Source of the DNA: Arbacia lixula | Lineage: Eukaryota; Echinodermata; Echinoidea; Arbacioida; Arbaciidae | Direction of reading: 5' to 3' | Assembly (NCBI GenBank): GCA_963669155.1 | Contig: OZ022579.1 | Coordinates: 14,948,040-15,012,039 of the forward strand | DNA length: 64,000 nt | Part shown: in pieces, positions 494 to 40,300 of the stretch | How the letters are laid out: every line of letters begins with the position of its first letter | Numbering within the stretch: position 1 is the stretch's first letter | The notes under the pieces: model-generated | Database searches by the model: none | Told to the model about the DNA's origin: nothing | What the model saw: only the letters and a program-made list of their open reading frames with translations | Program-made: the position numbers and the translations under genes

Positions 494-646
494 ATTTGTA
501 TCTGGTCTGTCGGCACAAGACTACACAGCTGTCAGACAGCAAGGAGTAGTCTTGCTTCTAGGACCGGACTGTTTTTAATCTTAGCCCTTGTTTGGACTCC
601 GCATGACCACCAAGCAGGTCATGTGATGTGGCAGAAACATGGCTGA
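494..646 (-). ncRNA. H/ACA snoRNA candidate, U65/snR34-like, copy 1 (EIF3B intron 7)
   Basis: The hairpin 2 upper stem, the H box, the ACA box and both pockets are intact. The outer stem of hairpin 1 carries changes (plus-strand TCTTAGCCCTTG against TCTCAGCCATTG), leaving one mismatch near the base, and the apical loop reads CACAG. It is in intron 7, downstream of exon 7 (1469-1600), so all six consecutive introns 2-7 are occupied. Intron 1 (8987-9722) has no recognisable copy. Confidence 0.83.
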
Positions 647-1087
647 TTAAGTCTGAAAAAAATGACTATCACAACACCCACCCCAATAGCAATCCTGAAC
701 ATGAAACTGTAATAAACATGCACCTCATGAAAATTACAAGAAAAAAACAGGAGGAAAGATTAACACTGTTTAATGGCAGTATGTCACCACATGAATATGA
801 TGGCAGTATGTCACCACATGAATATGAATTTTAATTATTTTGAATTATAATTTCAAAATCTATCCATGGCAGGAAATTCACTTTGTGATTTTGCCCTGGT
901 GAAGGTTGCATCTAGTACATGGATATTTGTGCAGTGTTCATTCATGAAATCAGGAAGGAAAATGCCCAAGGGATTGGGGCAAATTAGGCCCTGAGACAAA
1001 AAGTACATTTTTCTCATGAACAGCATGGTGCAGTGGTTCTCTCTCATGACACCAGACTCCTGTTTTATAAACAATTGTGACTGATCA

Positions 1088-1246
1088 GGGTCCCGTTGCA
1101 TAAAACTAACCATTAATGGTAACTCCGCCATCGATGGTAACAACCATGGTAACATTGCTCGACAGCCAATCAAATTCAAGATTTCCACAGAAGCTGCTAT
1201 TGGTGGCAAAGTTGCCATCAATGGTAAGTTTTATGCAACAGGGCCC
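1088..1246. mobile_element. Short foldback element, family A (GTTGCATAAAACTTACCAT ends)
   Basis: Ends GTTGCATAAAACT and AGTTTTATGCAAC in GGGYCC flanks, about 159 bp, no ORF. It shares ends and the interior GCTCGACAGCCAAT with the copy at 39999-40155. It lies in EIF3B intron 7. Confidence 0.7.
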
Positions 1247-1468
1247 AGAACTTGATTCGCGATTGATAATATCAATTCTAACTTTGTACATTAGAGTTAT
1301 GTGATTGGACATGCAAATTATTTCAGATCAATCGCAAGTCAAGTTGGGACTGATCTGATTTTAATTGTATCTCTGTATATTAAAAGATACAGCATTGGAC
1401 GTGCAATTGACCCAGATTTATCGTAACTCTTTCATAAGACGGGGGTCTTCCGACTGACAAAGACTCAC

Positions 1469-2823
1469 TTGAAGACGGGCCAGTTGGAGGTGTTCTCACA
1501 TGAGAAGCCCCTCTTCTTGACGCCCATCTTGACATCCCAGATGATGATGGCTTGTGTCTCGTCACGGGGGTCGTTGAGGGGGCTGAACGTCACTATGTAC
1601 CTAGAGGAGGAGCAAATTAGGATTTATTCAAATGTTAAGTTGGATATATTTATTCAATCAAATGTGAGGTAAGAGGATATGTTGGTAAAAGGTCAAAGGC
1701 TTGAGACAGATACAAACATATCCCCCCCTCCCCATGATATGTGACATGAGATATCAAGAACCCAAATTTTTCAAGGAAAAGGTTTGCTTGTGTCTCAAGT
1801 CGTGATACACTTAATTGAACCCTCATATGAGATGTATGCTTATTCAATAGTGTATGTTTGAAGTTCATGATGTAAGAATCACCTTCTGTCCACATGAAAC
1901 ATATTTTGTATCATACATGTACCTTATATATCACATTAGATTCTCCTTTACATTCTACTACACAAAAGTACACAGATTGTGTCTGGTCTGTCGGCACAAG
2001 ACTACATGGCTGTCAGACAGCAAAGAGTAGTCTTGCTTCTAGGACCGGACGGGTGTTAATCTCAGCCATTGTTTGGACTCCGCATGACCACCAAGCAGGT
2101 CATGTGATGTGGCAGAAACATGGCTGACTTAGTATGTATAGAGAACCTGCTGAAATTCTACCAACTACAGCCATGAAATTACAGCTTCCTGACATAGCAC
2201 ATACAAAATATTTAGACCCAGAAAGTCGTACTGCAGAGATGCCAACCTCTTGACACAAAAAATCAGACTGAACATCCTCAAAAATCGTATTTTTGAGTGA
2301 AAAATCAGATTTTCACGAAAACTCAACCCAGGAAAATGTTAGGAAAATGTTTTACTGATAACAATGGGAAAGTGAAATGTTTGCTCTTTCATCTGACCTT
2401 CACTCTTTTCATCCCATACCGATTACAGTATTACCAATAATGGGACATCTTCGCTGTAAAGCAAATGTATAAGTGGCAACACATGCTATCACAATAGTAT
2501 GAGAGCATCTATTTGGATCTTAGAATAAAGATCAGCGAAGTCACCTAAACCAGACCTGCCAACTTCTTGAGTTCAAAAACTGTATTCTTTAATCCAAAAT
2601 GTTGTATTTTACCAACAAAAAATGTATTAAAAAAAAAAAAAAAAACGGATCAGTGTCTCTTACAGTTCCTACATCGGGCATTTTTTATGGAGCATTGGTT
2701 GAATATGCATGATTTTGTCATGACTGGTGTGCTAGATGAACCAATGAACATCCCCAAATTGCTAATGTGAGATGCTGGTAGGATACTTTACAAAACGGAA
2801 TGGGCATTTCGCCATTAAAATAA

Positions 2824-2867
<44 letters not shown>

Positions 2868-5800
2868 GTTTTTTTTTTTTTGTGTGTGTGTGAAAATCGT
2901 ATTTTTTTAAAGGAAAATCGTACTGTCGTATTCAGTTCTAAAAATCGTACTAAATACGACAAAATCGTACTGGTTGGCATGTCTGGTACTGCAGTGAACT
3001 AAGTTGTCTTCTTTTTTTTCACCTGGAAAGCTAAATGTGTATCTCTGCAACATTAATTCATAAATTGATATTTTCAACTTCACAACATTCCCAAGAAAAT
3101 AAAACACATTTTAGCCCATGGGCTGAAGATAAGTGAAAATAAGCTAATTGTACCTCCCCCCCCCCCCTTCCTTCAAAAAAAAAATAATATAAAAATAGGA
3201 AAAAGGTGGAAAAATAAGAAGTGCCAGGTTCGAGTTTAAACTTTTGTCTGAACCTGTCGTCCAGGTATTTATCCTACCTCTCACAGGGTGAAACATCTAT
3301 GAGTTGCACCCCCGGATGGGCAAACTTGCGGATCTGCTGAAACTTCTCTCCTCCCCACAATGCAATGCCCTTTTGATGGAACGTGACGAGGTAAGTGCCA
3401 AGAGGTGACCAGTGGACGTACGTCTCCGTCCAACGCTACTCAACAAAAGATGACAGAAAAGGGGTTGTCAAGAGTGAGCAATGCTTGAATTTTCTTGATA
3501 CAAGTTACAAATATCACAGACACACAACCCACTCTTCCGTACGAATACATGTCACAAGATTTAGATTTGCATAGAGTCAAGTTACACACACACAACTCCC
3601 ATCCCTTGCTCTGCCCCATACATGTCAAGAAATATCAAGAGCAAAGCTATACTTTGCGATGGAGTTTGACGACGTGTTCTAAAATCTTTAACTGCAACTG
3701 CAAACTTTAAACTATGTACCTGTTACCCAGTAGCACAAGTTTATAATGCATGCCGTAAGATACATTTTCCCTCTGATTGAAAGCATTTTCTATCAAACTT
3801 CAAACATGAAATAAGACATATCCAAATGATATCTAATGCTCTTTTTGGCTCCTATTTTCCTGTACATTTTGATACTGAGGCATGTTATACAGAAATTGTG
3901 TCTGGTCTGTCGGCACAAGACTACATGGCTGTCAGACAGCAAGGAGTAGACTTGCTTCTAGGACCGGACTGGTGTTAATCTCAGCCATTGTTTGGACTCC
4001 GCATGACCACCAAGCAGGTCATGTGATGTGGCAGAAACATGGCTGATCCAGTCTGAATAGAGAGAGGGCCTAAATCAGACCAATACATGGTCATACCAAG
4101 AACAGCTGCTAAAATAAGCGTGCATTGCTCCTCTCCTTTTTTAACAATTGTTCTCCCGCCATACCTTCCGGATTATTTTCCTGTCCAACAATCACTTACA
4201 ATGAAAGGGACACACTGAAACATGTTATGCAATTTACCCGCTTGAGGAAAAAACATTTTTTACGGAGGCTCTTTCTTTATTTACAGGGGCTTAATAAGCC
4301 AGTTTGAAGTTTCAACATGGTCAGACAATCAACAGAATCAAATACTACTGGACTGCAGCCTGGGAATTGTTTATGAAGCTATGTTGGGTGATGGATGTAA
4401 AGGCATTTTACAGCATGCTCATTACAGCAACACAGGCAGGTGCACGTGGTGGAACATTTTTTCACTACATTGTCAGAGCTGAATAGCTGTTCTCACATGT
4501 GCATGAGAATGGGCATGAACGTGGTCGCTCATCTCATGAATTTCCATTTTACTCTGAGTGGTACGATTGACACAAGGTCATTCAGGGGCCCATTTCATAA
4601 AAAGTTGCTATGATAGCAACTCTTGCTGGAATGTCAACTTCCATTGGAAGAGCCAATCAGGGAGCAGAATTTTCACTGTTATCATAGTAGTTGACATTAC
4701 AGCAAGAGTTGCTATCATAGCAACTTTTTATGAAATGGGCCCCAGAACAGCAATAATCCGCTCATGCGCACATTGCAACTTTGAACTGGCTTATTTTTTT
4801 CCCCTTGCGAATTACGCACCTTCCTCTCCTCGACAACGGTTGCTTCCGTCTTGCCGTTGAGTAGGATGGCAGTGGTCTCTCCTCCATCTGAGATCACGCT
4901 GTACTGGTCGTTGCAGTCCTTGTCGAGCAACCAGCTCCTTAGGTTACCCTGGGGAAGTAGAGGAAGACTTCAAACTTAAACGCTATCTCTGCATAAATAT
5001 ATCTTGACGATAAATGATATGCATGATGAATTATAGAAAGAGATAAAATGACAGACAATGTCACTATCAGGGGATACTTTTCAAGTCTGAACACCATCTC
5101 TGCATAAAAATAGCTCAACTAGATATTATATGCATGATAAATTATAGAAATAGATAAAATGACTGATAATGTCACTGTCAGGGGCTGTTTTAAGTAGGAT
5201 ATCATAAAACAGACACCCTAAAACATGTTGTGCATTGAAGCCAATGAGGAAATCAGGGCCTTGCCTTATAAAGAGTTGGAATTGATCTGAATTGATGGCA
5301 AGCCCAATCCCCTATCTCTAGGGTACAGAGTTACGATTGATAACAAGCGCTAGTCTAGATGCAATCAATCACAATTCTTCAAAAGACAGGGCCCATAACA
5401 CACATGACCAACATCACTATCTTACAAGGCAATTGATGATGAATTGACAACTGCTTTAACAAAAGATATGAATTCAAAGATAACATAAAGCGCAGCAAAC
5501 TGTAGCATATTTGCATAGGAATGTATGAAGGGATCACTCAAATGCTCTTTAAATTCTCATCTCTATAAGTTTGAATTAATTTAGCCAAAAGGCAAATTTT
5601 GGAAAGTTTTTTTCCAGGAACAACTCTGAAGAAAAAGAATTCAAACTATTTTATTACAGATTATGAAACTAAAAACATCCAGCATAAAATTGTGTTGTGA
5701 ATACAAGATTACAGTGCAATACAAACACACACAGAACCATTATGATATACTGAATATGTGGAAAAGCTACAATGATCCCCAAATACAATAATATTATTTG

Positions 5801-8800
5801 ACCTCACCTGGCTTCTGTAGTTCTAAATAAATTTTCACTATTTATAATATTTTTTTAACAGAATGTATCTGGTCTGTCGGCACAAGAGTACATGGCTGTC
5901 AGACAGCAATGAGCAATCTTGCTTCTAGGACCTGACTGGTTTTAATCTCAGCCATTGTTTGGACTCCGCATGACCACCAAGCAGGTCATGTGATGTGGCA
6001 GAAACATGGCTGATCCCGTCTGAATGCAGGGCTATTTCATCATGTGTGGTATCTGGTTCTCATATCAAAAAATGGGTAAAAACTTACATGATCTTTGTAA
6101 GGTTGGGCTTCAGGTGGGGTCCATTTGTCTGGCAAAGTCAAAAACCTGCAAAACAGCAAAAACAAATGTCACATATGAACTTTTAACATTCAATTTACTC
6201 TACTGGTTTATGTTAATGGTTTATGTTAAACCAGTAGAAACCAGTAGACGCTCTCTATTGGTTTCTACTGGTTTCTATGGGAATTTCGACCTGGGTCATC
6301 ATGTCATGATGGCGGTCATCTTGAAAAATTATGAACTTTTAACATTCAATTTATCTTACAACTTTAAATACAGTAGCTGTAGACTACTTAATATACTGGG
6401 AAGTTGATACAATTTTAATTTGCTAAGTATTTCACTGCTTTAATAGCAATATCCCTATTACAATTTCCAGGTATCATACCTCCATTCACAAGCAAAAATT
6501 CATTTTTTAGCAGTGAAGAAGTTATTCATGAATTTATATTGAACAATGCCATCTGGTAACTTCTTTGCAGAGGCATAAAAATGGAAAACAGCCGCAAATG
6601 TCTAGGTCACAAATTGTATCTGGTCTGTCGGCACAAGACTACACGGCTGTCAGACAGCAATGAGTAGTCTTGCTTCTAGGACCGGACTGGTGTTAATCTC
6701 AGCCATTGTTTGGACTCCGCATGACCACCAAGCAGGTCATGTGATGTGGCAGAAACATGGCTGATTGAGTATGACTACATGAATCCTGGTTACCCTTATT
6801 AATAACAATACAAGGTCACTTCATTAACAGCTGCTGCAAGTAGCAAATATATCTCTGCTGACCCTTCATTTTCAATATTTTTCCTTCTTCCTCAGGTCAG
6901 GGGAATGACTAACTATAACAAGTGTTAGTAAAATCCCAACTTCTGCTTTAAATAGGCATACGAAAGGAAAATATATCCAGTAAAATCAAAATATTTACAG
7001 CTACAAAACTTTTTTTTTCAGAATGCTGATGTAAGATGAGCAGAAGGTGTCAACCAAGCTTTCATGACTCTCGCAGTCAGGAGACAGGAGGAGAGTTTCT
7101 GTGACATGCAACAGGTACCGTTGTATTTAGGCTGGATGACATGCGTGCTGGACCCAAAATAGTATAGAAGTGGTGTCGTCACAAGAGCATGTTGTCCAGA
7201 CAACTGATTCCAAACAAAATCACTCCAGTGAGAGGTTTACCTGTCCGACATTGTCTAGCGTGCTAGTGTCGGGCACTCCCAATTTTAGATTCCCCGCTGT
7301 GATCACCGCTACTTGCTCTACCAGCATAGTTTAGAACCAGTTGTCTTGACAATATGCTAAAATGATGTCACACTTGGGAACTCTGTAGCTACTATAATTC
7401 TAGAATTGTTACTTACAGGATGGTCCCCAGTGTAAAAAAAAAATGCAGTTTAAAAAGTGCATCACATCTAGAAAGTCATTGTGGAATTTGCTTTAATTCA
7501 CTGCATCACTTTTCATGACATTATTATTCTTAATATTCTGATTGCTTTTGCTCTCTTTGCACCATGTGTTCCATACTTGCACACCACAGGCTCAGCAAGG
7601 ACATTTTCTTGAACCCACTTGCACAAGACAGAGCAGAATGTTTACAAATGGCAGCCAGCCTTAGAAGGTGACACAAACGCTCTATACGGACAACATCTAC
7701 AGTGCATACTGACGACAAATTTCTGAACTTCAGCTTACTTGTCGAAGTCTGTGATGAGGTTGACTGCGAAGGTGTGCTGTTTGTCTAGTTTGTATCCATT
7801 CAGCTGCTTGGAGGCCTCTATTGCATGCTCAGGGCTGGAGTACTCGACAAAGATGTACCTGGATTAAAAATTAAACAGTCAACCACCCCCTCATCAATCA
7901 TAACTGATTAAAAGGCATATACTGTACTGGGAAGACAAAAAAGCCTTCACAAGAGGTGATCGTGTGCAATCTTCTTGCCAATAGTCTTAAATTCATGTAT
8001 TGTCTATTTTAGAAACTTGCTGAAAGTCATTTACCATCAAATGATCCACGTTTGGAGTAATTAGTGATTAAATTCCAAATCCTCAAAATGTTCTGGCCGA
8101 TAAGTGATTACATGCATGTGACACACAATGGAGCAGCGGGTGCCTGGCATTTAAAGGATTGAATATCCTCAAGTATAATGTTGAATATCTTGTGATGGAT
8201 CATTTTCATTTTTAACGCGAGAAAAGAAATGCAATCTTTAGAAGCATGTATCTGGTCTGTCGGCACAAGACTACATGGCTGTCAGACAGCAAGGAGTAGT
8301 CTTGCTTCTAGGACCGGACTGGTTTTAATCTCAGCCATTGTTTGGACTCCGCATGACCACCAAGCAGGTCATGTGATGTGGCAGAAACATGGCTGATTTA
8401 AGTTTATGTAAAGGGGCTCACACCACTTCACTACAGGTTCTCTTTGGGAATGAAGTTGAATACCTAGAGGTAAATGTTAGTGTAGAGCTCTAGATAACAC
8501 AAAGACCAAAAAAGGGGACCTCTCTCTCGCTCTCTCCAGGAATATATAAACCTGATTTTGCTTTGGTTGAAGTCTTTGTTAGGTGAGCAACTTTAATCTT
8601 AGTTACCATAAATCACCCTTTCATACAATTTCTACCCACCCTTTCCACAACCTTCTTCCTTCCCCATCTCCTTACTTCTTCCAAACCTTGCCCAATCTTC
8701 TTCCCATCCCATCTTCATCTTTTCACCACCCCTTCCCTCATCTTCTTCCGACCCCTCTGCCCCATCTTCTCGTCCCTACAACACCCTTACCCCTTGGTCT

Positions 8801-9876
8801 TTCCATCCTCTCCTTCTGGGTAGTGCTCCGTGCTGATGTCTCCATACTTGCTGCACACCTTCCTGATGACGTTCTTCAACTTGGGCAGCCTCTCCGCCGA
8901 TACCTGGGGCACGTTGTCGATGACGATGACAGAGTCAATGCCGAGAGCCTCCTTGGGTTTTGTCCGCAAGATGTCACCCAGGAGTTCTACGGGCAGAGAA
9001 GAACATGTTGGGACACAATTTGGTGAGCCTCATGCACCTCTGACTGTGAGCGGGTTTCAGTTACGCCTTTCCACATCTTGCCTCCAAGACTAAAACTAAT
9101 TTAGTAATTAAAAATTAAATTTTTGTTTTCACAGACAAAGGCTAGAATCCACAGAAGAGTCTATACATATGCATTGTCAGGGAGATGAAGATGGCCTGGA
9201 GAGTCCTCCCCCCCCCCCCCCCCAAAAAAAAAGAAGAAATATATATCTATATATTTATCATAAAAATAAATAATATTGTAATGTCAGAGGCAGTACTACC
9301 TGGCTGTGCAAAGCGACACATTTTGTTGACGACATCATTTCGCAAATTATATACAAAATACAGGATTAAAGCCAGGACTCAGGAATAAGAAGACAAATTT
9401 GGGGGAGCAATCTTAAAGAACGGTTTTGTTTGAACTTAAAATAATTGGTTCTGAACTCAAACTCACAGCTGTGGGACTGTGAACTTTTTCTTTATGAGAC
9501 TCGGTCCCTGAACCTCGCCCCTACTACACCACGTTCGACCGTATGGCGCGTACACAGGGCGGGCCGCGGGGCCCATGAATGAAATTAAGTATGAATGAAT
9601 GGCAACTATAATGCATGCACGCTAAACCGGCATGAAACAGCCAGTGTAAGTAACTGTGTGTGATAAGACAGCGAGATTAGAGAAAAGGTGAACATATGTT
9701 CACTGAAAATTATTGAACTTACCTTCATCAGTGATGTTGTCAACATAAGTGTCGGGATCGTTGAAATCTGGTTCTTCTTCGTATCCATTTTCCTCCTCTT
9801 CATGTTGTTCATTTTCGTGAACTCGATCCATTTTTGTTCTCCCTCCTGTTCTTTCCCTCTCGCTACCTTCGGCCAT
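1469..9876 (-). CDS. EIF3B: Eukaryotic translation initiation factor 3 subunit B, 5' part (seven coding exons, 3' end outside window)
   Basis: eIF3b is a scaffold subunit of the eIF3 complex, which binds the 40S ribosome during translation initiation in the cytoplasm. Coding exons, in transcript order: 9723-9876, 8791-8986, 7739-7858, 6088-6145, 4820-4948, 3278-3435 and 1469-1600. All junctions are GT-AG and the reading frame stays open for 947 nt (about 315 codons). The start is the ATG at 9876, followed by [12 protein letters not shown] and an acidic N-terminus. Exons 2-3 encode the RRM, with [13 protein letters not shown] and the RNP1-like GKTKGYIFVEY. Exons 5-7 enter the WD40-like propeller ([48 protein letters not shown]). 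The N-terminal extension is shorter than in vertebrates. Intron 7 runs off the left edge, so the rest of the propeller and the C-terminus are not visible. Introns 2-7 each contain one H/ACA snoRNA candidate. Exons 1-3 and 5-7 match family residues closely. Exon 4 (58 nt) was found by splice signals and the phase-matched peptide PPEAQPYKD. Confidence 0.95.
1975..2127 (-). ncRNA. H/ACA snoRNA candidate, U65/snR34-like, copy 2 (EIF3B intron 6)
   Basis: Both upper stems are perfect. Changes from copy 6 are in the apical loop (CAAAG), in the hinge (ACGGGTGTTAATC on the plus strand), and at the base before the ACA box. The H box AGATTA and both pockets are identical. It is alone in intron 6 (1601-3277). 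Confidence 0.86.
2228..2998. repeat. Diverged composite repeat with GCCAACC inverted ends
   Basis: CTGCAGAGATGCCAACCTCTTG at the left against GGTTGGCATGTCTGGTACTGCAG at the right (inverted), with repeated AAAATCGTA-type blocks and poly-A runs of up to 37 bp (2829-2865) inside. A second GACCTGCCAACTTCTTGAG start at 2550 suggests nesting. It lies in EIF3B intron 6. Confidence 0.45.
3894..4046 (-). ncRNA. H/ACA snoRNA candidate, U65/snR34-like, copy 3 (EIF3B intron 5)
   Basis: One base in the hairpin 2 upper stem differs (GTAGACTTG on the plus strand), creating a single mismatch in the 9-bp helix. Hairpin 1, the H box, the ACA box (here preceded by GAC rather than GAT) and both pockets are unchanged. 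It lies alone in intron 5 (3436-4819), which also holds an unrelated foldback element at 4585-4743. Confidence 0.85.
4585..4743. mobile_element. Short foldback element, family B
   Basis: Near-perfect terminal inverted repeats of about 35 bp (CCATTTCATAAAAAGTTGCT and complement) bracketing a small unique core. GGGGCCC and GGGCCCC are at the ends. It lies in EIF3B intron 5. No ORF. Confidence 0.75.
5861..6013 (-). ncRNA. H/ACA snoRNA candidate, U65/snR34-like, copy 4 (EIF3B intron 4), most diverged
   Basis: The H and ACA boxes and both pockets are kept. The hairpin 2 upper stem is altered: in plus-strand reading CAAGAGTAC faces GCAATCTTG, giving one U x C mismatch and one G.U wobble in nine pairs. 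The lower stem has also lost one base (GGACCTG rather than GGACCGG). It lies only 74 nt from the 5' splice site of exon 4 (exon end 6088), the closest of the six. It may be a weakened or decaying copy. Its intron is 4949-6087. Confidence 0.8.
6612..6764 (-). ncRNA. H/ACA snoRNA candidate, U65/snR34-like, copy 5 (EIF3B intron 3)
   Basis: Same length as the 8244-8396 copy. Both upper stems, the H box AGATTA, the ACA box and all pocket bases are intact. Differences are confined to the apical loop of hairpin 2 (CATGG to CACGG, and CAAGG to CAATG, in plus-strand reading) and to one hinge base. It is the only copy in intron 3 (6146-7738). The flanks outside the 153 nt are unrelated to those of the other copies, so the unit itself is what has been duplicated or conserved. 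Confidence 0.87.
7171..7374. mobile_element. Foldback element, family C
   Basis: Inverted ends GTGTCGTCACAAGAGCATGT and TGCTAAAATGATGTCACAC, with GTTGTC...GACAAC further in. A diverged copy is at 28231-28418, sharing the interior GTCGGGCACTC and CCCCGCT blocks. It lies in EIF3B intron 3. Confidence 0.65.
7908..8160. mobile_element. Partial foldback element, family D
   Basis: One arm (GGCATATACTGTACTGGGAAGAC...) and part of the centre of the element seen complete at 52497-52868. The second arm is missing or unrecognisable. It lies in EIF3B intron 2. Confidence 0.6.
8244..8396 (-). ncRNA. H/ACA snoRNA candidate, U65/snR34-like, copy 6 (EIF3B intron 2)
   Basis: Reference copy, numbered in sense (minus) orientation with nt 1 at 8396. 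Hairpin 1 (nt 1-65) has an outer stem TCAGCCA/TGGCTG with GTTT/AAAC, and a perfect 7-bp upper stem CATGACC/GGTCATG. The H box AGATTA (nt 66-71) fits ANANNA. Hairpin 2 has a perfect 9-bp upper stem CAAGACTAC/GTAGTCTTG (nt 93-101 and 123-131). The ACA box is at nt 148-150, three nt before the end. The upper stem of hairpin 2 ends 16 nt before ACA, and the pocket base in hairpin 1 lies 16 nt before the H box, both within the family's 14-16 nt rule. The pocket sequences CTGCCAC (nt 13-19) and GCCGACA (nt 133-139) are complementary to large-subunit rRNA near the peptidyl-transferase centre. H/ACA RNAs guide pseudouridylation with dyskerin, NOP10, NHP2 and GAR1. It sits alone in its intron, in the host's sense orientation. 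Ends are inferred from the box rules, not mapped. Confidence 0.88.
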
Positions 9877-37300: not shown

Positions 37301-40300
37301 CTAATTAATGTAGGATGGTGTGAAGGGAATGAAGAGAAATACATGTATGAGGGGAAGAGAAGAAAGGTAAAGGGGAGAATGGGAAAGACAGAGAGAGAGA
37401 GAGAGGGGGGGGGGGGGGAGGGGGTGAGGGAGATAGAGAATAAGAGAAGGGAGAGGTTATAAAACAAAGTAGTATGGGCAGAAAATGAGGAAAGAAAAGG
37501 GGAGAAGATTTTAAAAAAGAAAAGAAAAAGGGAAACATTGTTGTAATTAATGTGGTGTGAAGGGAATAAAGAGAAGTACATGTACGAGGGGAAGAGAAGA
37601 AAGGTAAAGGGGAGAGTGTGAAAGACAGAGAGAGAGAGAGAGAGGGGGGAGAGAATGAGGGAGATAGAGAATGATATAGGGAGAGGTTATAAAACAAAGA
37701 AGTATGGACAGAAAATGAGGAAAGAAAAGGGGAGAAGATTAACCCTTTTTGTCTCGCCCACCGGAGGTGAAGGCGAGACTAAGGGATCCAAATGGCGTCC
37801 GTCCGTCGTCCGTCGTCCGTCATCCGTCCGTCGTCCGTCGTCCGTCCGTCGTCCGTCGTCCGTCGTCCATCACAAATGTTAAAGTTTACCTGCAAGACTC
37901 TCTTATGATCCATAACTTCACATGGGTTGCTTGGATTACAACCTAACTTGGGTCATAGATGCACTGGGGGTACCTTCATGTTATGGTGGCGTTGGAGGTC
38001 ACAGGATAAGGTCAAAGGTCATTTGAGGTCATACGTTAAAGTTTACCTGCAAGACTCTCTTTTGACAAATAACTTCACATGGGTTGCTAGGATTACAACC
38101 TAACTTGGGTCATAGATGCACTGGGGGTACCTTCATGTGATGGTGGCGTTGGAGGTCACAGGATAAGGTCAAAGGTCATTTGAGGTCATACGTTAAAGTT
38201 TACCTGCAAGACTCTCTTTTGACAAATAACTTCACATGGGTTGCTTGGATTACAACCTAACTTGGGTCATAGATGCACTGGGGGTACCTTCATGTTATGG
38301 TACCGTTGGAGGTCACAGGATAAGGTCAAAGGTCATTTGAGGTCATACGTTAAAGTTTACCTGCAAGACTCTCTTTTGACAAATAACTTCACATGGGTTG
38401 CTTGGATTACAACCTAACTTGGGTCATAGATGCACTGGGGGTACCTTCATGTGATGGTGGCGTTGGAGGTCACAGGATAAGGTCAAAGGTCATTTGAGGT
38501 CATACGTTAAAGTTTACCTGCAAGACTCTCTTTTGACAAATAACTTCACATGGGTTGCTTGGATTACAACCTAACTTGGGTCATAGATGCACTGGGGGTA
38601 CCTACATGTTATGTTGCTGTTGGAGGTCACAGGATAAGGTCAAAGGTCATTTGAGGTCATACGTTAAAGTTTACCTGCAAGACTCTCTTTTGACAAATAA
38701 CTTCACATAGGTTGCTTGGATTACAACCTAACTTGGGTCATAGATGCACTGGAGGTACCTTCATGTTATGGTACCGTTGGAGGTCACAGGATAAGGTCAA
38801 AGGTCATTTGAGGTCATACGTTAAAGTTTACTTGCAAAACATTCTTATCACACATAACTCATCACATGTTGCTACTATGGCAATCAAACTTGGATGATGG
38901 ATGCACTGGGGGCACCTGCATGTTATTGTGCTGTAAGAGGTCACATGATAAGGTCAAAGGTCATTTGAGGTCATACATTAAAGTTTACTTGCAAGACTCT
39001 TGGTGAAGGCTTCCTAACTTGTGCACAGAATTGTGTGAGCATGTGTGAGCATTACTGATGTAGATTTAGGCAAACATTACTCATGCACATTTATGCAAAT
39101 TTATTCAAAGTCACTATTTTGCACCTGATTTTGATGTTGTCTGTTTAAAGTTGCTTATTTGTTTGTTTCAGTTTTCTTTTGCGTAGCAACGGAGATCGCG
39201 ATATTTCTGGTTATTTTCGCAAGTGGGCGAGACACAATATTGCTAATGCCTTGTTAGTCTTTACCTACTCCCCAATACCTTTAACTTTACAACACTGACA
39301 TTTTCAGAAACACTCTTTCCTGAATTACTGAATTTATTATGATGATTTTATAGCCATCTGAACAATTTGTAATTGCTTAACTCTTCAATAAAGCAGGATG
39401 TGACCGCTCTTCTTTATTTCAATGGTGGTTGCTGATATGAATACTTTTTATTGTGTAATTATTGATTTTCTTCTCCTACCAACATGTATGGAAGGACACT
39501 TAACTGAATCTGTATCTGCGCAAATTTACATGTATGCCACTCTCCAGATCGTGCACATGCAAACGTACAATGTAAAGAGTTCATTTATCCAACTTTGTTT
39601 TGATTTGTTGATTTCCTTCTTGCCGACCCAGATTCCTGTTTTAGCCTCTGACTTCCTGACCTTCCCGACAGCAGCCAAGCTGGTGGCTCTTGGCAGTCAA
39701 CGAGCCGAGAAGTTACTGGAAGAGCTCGGAGTAAGTTGGAGAAGAAGTAGCTTGTGGGTGTCATTCCAAAGTTCCTAACCCAAGTCAATGTTTTGTCTGA
39801 TGAATTGCAGATTATTTCCTAGTATCAGTCTAACTTCCTTTTGATGGGGTAAGAATAGAAGATATTATGTGATACGTTTACCTATTTGATGATCAAGACA
39901 GAGATAAAAAGAAAAGGGAAAGCGATTGGCTCAACATTAAAATCTTGCAAATTATGTGAAATCTCAACCTTACATTGCAAAGGAGAAGAATATGTCCAGG
40001 GGCCCGTTGGTAAAACTTACCATTTATGGTAACTCTGTCATCAATGTTAACTACCATGGTATGACCGCTCGACAGCCAATGAAATTCAAGGCTTCATAGA
40101 AGTTACCATCGATGGCAGAGTCACCATTAATGTTAATTTTTATGCAACAGGGCCCAATACTTCAAGTTTTATCGTTTAAGTCTACCGTAACTCTTTATGA
40201 GCCATTGATGCATTTTCGCACAAGTAATGCATACAAATCTTGTTTAGCAGCCTTTAGGATAAACAAGTAAAACACCATACAAATTGGATGTCAAAACTTT

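Follow-up and report, generated by a model that had tools for sequence, protein, structure and literature searches.

Fourteen copies of a predicted box H/ACA snoRNA, probably SNORA65/snR34-like, in fourteen of the fifteen EIF3B introns of the sea urchin Arbacia lixula

A unit of about 153 nt, predicted from its sequence to be a box H/ACA snoRNA, is present in 14 full-length copies in the 607-Mb assembly of Arbacia lixula, all of them within EIF3B. We think it quite probable that it is a SNORA65/snR34-like guide that was multiplied intron by intron through DNA duplication, with expression and rRNA modification as predictions of this reading. The stretch analysed (the window, 64,000 nt, C4:14948040-15012039) cuts EIF3B: beyond its start lie eight further full-length copies, one each in introns 8-15, and the array therefore comprises 14 copies, with only one of the 15 introns empty. 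A preliminary description of the window had reported six units of 153 nt, one each in introns 7 to 2. All six are present on the minus strand at exactly that length, and their introns were borne out by GT-AG borders and a continuous reading frame, but six is the count for the window and not the total. The copies (i2 to i15, numbered by intron) and the exons are as follows, in window positions.

494-646, minus strand: predicted H/ACA snoRNA copy i7 (EIF3B intron 7), H box AGATTA, ACA plus 3 nt
1469-1600, minus strand: EIF3B exon 7 (gene model)
1975-2127, minus strand: predicted H/ACA snoRNA copy i6 (EIF3B intron 6)
3278-3435, minus strand: EIF3B exon 6 (gene model)
3894-4046, minus strand: predicted H/ACA snoRNA copy i5 (EIF3B intron 5)
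4820-4948, minus strand: EIF3B exon 5 (gene model)
5861-6013, minus strand: predicted H/ACA snoRNA copy i4 (EIF3B intron 4)
6088-6145, minus strand: EIF3B exon 4 (gene model)
6612-6764, minus strand: predicted H/ACA snoRNA copy i3 (EIF3B intron 3), Rfam SNORA65 27.4 bits
7739-7858, minus strand: EIF3B exon 3 (gene model)
8244-8396, minus strand: predicted H/ACA snoRNA copy i2 (EIF3B intron 2)
8791-8986, minus strand: EIF3B exon 2 (gene model)
9723-9876, minus strand: EIF3B exon 1, from ATG (gene model and protein match)
Beyond the window start: EIF3B exons 8-16 and copies i8-i15, with introns 8-15 at C4:14937335-14947909

The EIF3B model comprises 16 exons, separated by 15 introns with GT-AG borders, and encodes 704 aa in one uninterrupted frame; intron 7 extends 16 bases past the window start. 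Exons were located with an eIF3b query and then joined at GT-AG borders, and PDB eIF3b chains (6ybt and others) match the 704-aa product at E = 0. Intron 5 also holds a long near-perfect inverted repeat (window 4584-4744) with sub-threshold miRNA-family scores (MIR8742, 75 of 130 bits), which is probably a small foldback transposon. Two more foldbacks in EIF3B introns (window 1103-1230 and L015 4029-4157) likewise score below threshold for miRNA families. Elsewhere in the window, positions 37873-38957 are a tandem repeat with a 157-nt period, in which a 300-nt reference matches six successive starts, the others being 86-97% alike.

Each of introns 2-15 contains exactly one copy, always in host-sense orientation. 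Random placement weighted by intron length put 14 copies into 14 different introns in only 29 of 1,000,000 trials, and the chance of a single orientation in all copies is 2^-14. Intron 1 showed no copy, not even a decayed one, to a covariance model of the array (E up to 10, default filters). Two genome-wide DNA searches were made, one query per main subtype, each scoring 14 of 14 first-look candidates. Copy i7 matched 14 places, all on the minus strand of C4 between 14937938 and 14956435; the divergent copy i12 matched the same 14 together with one 22-base fragment inside copy i14. Over the contiguous stretch, nhmmer recovered every copy at full length or a few bases short. No unit was found outside EIF3B in the 607 Mb by the two DNA searches, which strongly diverged copies may escape. 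A simple dispersed repeat was rejected on the absence of copies outside EIF3B, the one-per-intron placement and the single orientation, in agreement with the preliminary description, which had considered that reading unlikely.

Box H/ACA snoRNAs are defined, in passages of PMC8096250, by two hairpins with a hinge between them that carries an ANANNA H box. The 14 copies are 73-96% identical in pairwise comparison, and 13 of them have an ANANNA H box: AGATTA stands in ten copies, AGAATA in i9, AGAGTA in i12 and ACATTA in i13, the exception being i10 with AGATTG. All 14 end in ACA followed by 3 nt, where conservation stops (a 3′ end predicted from sequence); these last 3 nt differ at 64.5% between copies. 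In the 14-copy alignment, a 44-pair structure of two hairpins has paired bases in 95.8% of its 614 cells, against 28.7-37.4% for slid control structures, a comparison biased in its favour because the structure was derived from the same sequences. Both-sided changes occur at nine pairs (26 cells), as many as in 0 of 500 shuffles; the copies are related, so this covariation represents a few events and not 26. Seven of the nine pairs lie in the upper stem of hairpin 1, whose two strands have a mean difference of 33-36%. The number of further pair types did not exceed that in shuffles (431 of 500 as high). Boxes, hairpins, covariation and placement together uphold what the preliminary description had proposed, a snoRNA of the H/ACA class that is encoded in introns and has expanded inside a single translation-factor host, and the repeated unit is on these features classed as a predicted box H/ACA snoRNA. 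The 5′ pocket lies 17-18 nt from the H box by hand count on the alignment, slightly farther than the usual H/ACA distance of 14-16 nt. A scaRNA carries a CAB box (UGAG) in a terminal loop; reading the alignment by eye, we found no UGAG in either apical loop, and this class was set aside.

Hairpin 2 is nearly invariant, in 13 of 13 pocket columns and in 18 of 21 columns of its apical part, the palindrome GCUGUCUGACAGC (alignment columns 107-127), which lies outside the guide pocket. Conservation past what the pockets need, together with one unit per intron in nearly all introns, would suit repeats that act in cis on EIF3B splicing or intron stability, with a guide role secondary or lost. Such elements would have to work from varying positions, however: copies lie 74-1150 nt from the 5′ and 187-1051 nt from the 3′ splice site, so that fixed spacing was rejected as a placement rule and no fixed distance to either site exists. 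Intron 1 also does without a copy, and the H/ACA boxes and pockets have been retained. We therefore consider a cis-acting role very unlikely as the main explanation.

The guide reading depends on the pockets. Vertebrate U65 serves the same pair of uridines as yeast snR34, and we take the 5′ pocket of the array to serve the equivalent of yeast U2826 and the 3′ pocket that of U2880. The two target uridines were named, on the model of snR34 and U65, before the urchin's own 28S fragment was fetched. This fragment, the last 976 nt of 28S (L023:8382-9357, LSU family positions 2391-3399; 202 U scanned), reads AACUGGC-U-UGUGGCAG and GUCGGC-U-CUUCCUA around the two sites. In ten copies the left guide of the 5′ pocket, CUGCCAC, is the exact complement of GUGGCAG in the urchin's 28S, and in all 14 copies the right guide of the 3′ pocket, GCCGAC, is the exact complement of GUCGGC. 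By an anchored pairing score, with pocket borders and scoring set by hand after viewing the sequence, the snR34-equivalent U ranked first of 202 for both the 5′ pocket (score 26, shared with one other U) and the 3′ pocket (score 27). Shuffled guides reached the site score in 0 of 2,000 and 1 of 2,000 cases, respectively. For the 5′ pocket, the type-A consensus and i8 were scanned (i10 and i11 share the core), and for the 3′ pocket one consensus. Judged by this pairing, the predicted pockets best fit two peptidyl-transferase-centre uridines that are modified in yeast with snR34. According to passages of PMC11121408, snR34 directs Ψ2826 (E. coli 2457) in yeast, and Ψ2826 and Ψ2880 are both lost in a triple snoRNA deletion that includes snR34.

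The relationship to SNORA65 was also sought at the level of the RNA family. At the Rfam gathering threshold nothing was found in the window. With cmscan at E up to 10, run on stretches holding 11 copies (i13 and i15 left out), nine copies were listed at 19.7-29.5 bits, and SNORA65 (RF00302) was the best family, no other H/ACA family being listed for them. Copy i14 scored 25.5 bits in a genome-wide SNORA65 search (45 of 12,563 first candidates scored), which listed three matches, all of them array members; their E values of 1.6-4.5 make these matches weak by themselves. No scored copy reaches the SNORA65 gathering score of 70 bits, and array members are not classed as Rfam SNORA65. The SNORA65 link raised in the preliminary description thus holds in family rank and in target sites, but not in score. 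Like SNORA65/U65 and yeast snR34, the array RNA would be an H/ACA RNA with two pockets complementary to the snR34 target positions. The Rfam SNORA65 consensus starts CccGcCaC where the array 5′ pocket has CUGCCAC, and human 28S reads GUGGCGG at the 5′-pocket target. The pair CUGCCAC and GUGGCAG could then reflect a guide and a target that changed together, which is suggestive only. The two human 28S position numbers usually associated with U65 do not include 4417. Position 4417 is given as a SNORA65 site in passages of PMC7862062.

The array might instead be an H/ACA array that is not equivalent to SNORA65/snR34, its targets lying elsewhere (another rRNA site, an snRNA or an mRNA) and the 28S match being accidental. 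The unreached Rfam threshold is in keeping with this, as are the site-blind 28S maxima, which were not significant (shuffles matched them in 8 of 120 cases for the 5′ and 19 of 120 for the 3′ pocket). Both pockets also have an imperfect half: the right guide of the 5′ pocket forms 3-4 pairs only, with 2 of 5 columns invariant, and the left guide of the 3′ pocket requires a 1-nt bulge in the target. The scan covered 976 nt of 28S, with 18S, most of 28S and the snRNAs outside it. Against an accidental match stand the first ranks and the 0 and 1 of 2,000 shuffles at sites named beforehand, and SNORA65 as the sole H/ACA family listed over the copies; we judge other targets unlikely. Both strands of the 3′ pocket are invariant (13 of 13 columns), as are 7 of 8 columns in the left strand of the 5′ pocket. 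The urchin's own 28S was present in the assembly as a 3′ part and a decayed fragment (C9:376181-377156 and C6:3749772), and a sequence on C382 matched at 70%. Nothing in the genome matched an 18S query.

In the SNORA65/snR34-like reading, each unit would be freed as a box H/ACA snoRNA from a spliced EIF3B intron and would bind the H/ACA core proteins dyskerin, NHP2, NOP10 and GAR1. The resulting particle would direct the conversion to pseudouridine of two peptidyl-transferase-centre uridines in 28S, with its 5′ pocket acting on the equivalent of yeast U2826 (E. coli 2457) and its 3′ pocket on that of U2880, as yeast snR34 and vertebrate SNORA65/U65 do. An ancestral copy would have been duplicated as DNA among EIF3B introns until 14 of 15 were occupied. 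The 14 copies may serve dosage, and the array may serve the function of its host.

The copies fall into subtypes that differ in their 5′ pockets. Copies i9, i12, i13 and i15 (type C) form a supported clade (100/99) and carry CUGACAC in the 5′ pocket, which is one mismatch. With type-C 5′ pockets the site ranked sixth (i9) and fifth (i12), and 94 and 58 of 2,000 shuffles scored as high. Another 28S target for the type-C pocket of i12 was rejected within the 976-nt fragment, where the best score was 21.5 and 55 of 120 shuffles scored as high. From their guide strands, ten copies seem equipped for both sites, and the type-C copies may guide the 3′ site only.

Alignment columns 1-69 include 31 informative columns, nine of which cleanly separate the four-copy clade; columns 70-155 include seven, of which none separates the clade and five are mixed (columns 156-158 were excluded as flank). 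Of the 132 site pairs that span the two halves, 94 show four-gamete conflicts, as do 171 of all 378 pairs. The 3′-half pattern would fit either exchange between introns or strong constraint with recurrent change. The preliminary description had called the flanks unrelated, which is so for most pairs, at chance level, but six of the 91 pairs on the 5′ side and five of the 91 on the 3′ side exceed the null's 99% level (about one expected each). The null consisted of other intron stretches and itself contains a few very high pairs, the top one scoring 194, more than any of the flank pairs; the probable cause is that introns have further repeats in common. Likeness above the null joins i13 and i15 on both sides and i3, i5 and i6 on the 5′ side. 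These shared flanks point to duplication at the DNA level with flanks that have since decayed, and not to retroposition.

SnoRNA retroposons exist in mammals, and a short unit present in many copies whose flanks are mostly unrelated could be the work of a snoRNA-derived mobile element inserted repeatedly in EIF3B, most copies being passengers. A run of seven A lies shortly 3′ of i4, but i4 alone was noted with one and no A tail common to the copies was found in the 45-nt flanks. The element would also have to be missing from the rest of the 607 Mb, where no copy was found, and to have inserted once per intron, always in sense. Its guide strands have been kept while flanks diverged, and the faint co-duplicated flanks favour DNA duplication; we give a mobile element almost no weight.

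Multiplication within a gene is also seen at a second locus. SNORA73/U17 scored above threshold at at least four places in the genome (29 of 16,833 candidates scored). These four copies are near-identical; three lie in an eIF4A-like gene, each in an intron of its own and all sense, and the fourth lies on another contig.

L025 (C15:4988500-4998499) 3477-3720, plus strand: U17/SNORA73 copy, eIF4A-like gene intron
L025 5277-5520, plus strand: U17/SNORA73 copy, eIF4A-like gene intron
L025 7337-7580, plus strand: U17/SNORA73 copy, eIF4A-like gene intron
L026 4436-4679, minus strand: fourth U17/SNORA73 copy

In-gene multiplication in translation-factor hosts is so not unique to EIF3B, and the EIF3B array of 14 far exceeds the three copies of the eIF4A-like gene.

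In mammalian arrays of the SNORD115/116 type, each intron carries one of tens of near-identical copies. The EIF3B array resembles them in this placement; unlike them, it would be H/ACA and not box C/D, in a coding housekeeping host with a product of normal length and not in a non-coding imprinted one. Cis-duplication of an intronic snoRNA within one host is a known kind of event, as passages of PMC2653536, PMC1821038 and PMC3412847 describe. In the chicken, six duplicated H/ACA snoRNAs gave 13 paralogues (PMC2653536, in part), and sponge RPL13A has two snoRNA copies in neighbouring introns (PMC3412847, in part). Both resemble the array in occupying neighbouring introns with guide regions kept, and differ from it in that here one H/ACA RNA has 14 copies, as far as the consulted passages of those papers go. 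The isoforms DmSnR60 a-d of Drosophila mfl also lie one per intron, in a host from the RNA-modification machinery, but in the passages of PMC1821038 they are box C/D, four in number and in 3′ UTR introns, against 14 H/ACA copies across the coding region here. In the open-access literature, we found no report of a coding gene in which 14 of the 15 introns each carry a copy of one and the same H/ACA RNA.

A wider reading, which we offer tentatively and which may well go too far, would make EIF3B, in this lineage, a dedicated polycistronic host with a snoRNA from nearly every intron, linking the dosage of a peptidyl-transferase-centre modifier to initiation-factor transcription. Ten copies would be two-site guides and four would be guides of the 3′ site only, sequence would be exchanged between copies chiefly in the 3′ hairpin, which might have a further role, and eIF4A, with its three U17 copies, would be a second case. 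If confirmed, the array would be a natural copy-number experiment, in a coding host, on an H/ACA guide for two peptidyl-transferase-centre pseudouridines. Fourteen distinguishable copies in one gene would let one ask whether snoRNA dose limits modification and how copies travel between introns without exon duplication, and they raise the question of why the one-per-intron rule is so strict. Type-C copies permit a direct test of whether duplicated copies have lost one of their guide functions.

Vertebrate SNORA65 is a single intronic copy in RPL12, and the array is unlike it in having 14 copies in EIF3B as well as in scoring below the gathering score. RPL12 was rejected as an additional host in the urchin, since its locus (L027, C21) gave no match to the array's model. 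At this locus, the last RPL12 exon occurs three times in a row within 2359-2863 (tblastn 2863, 2695 and 2556), with two of the copies apparently cut short.
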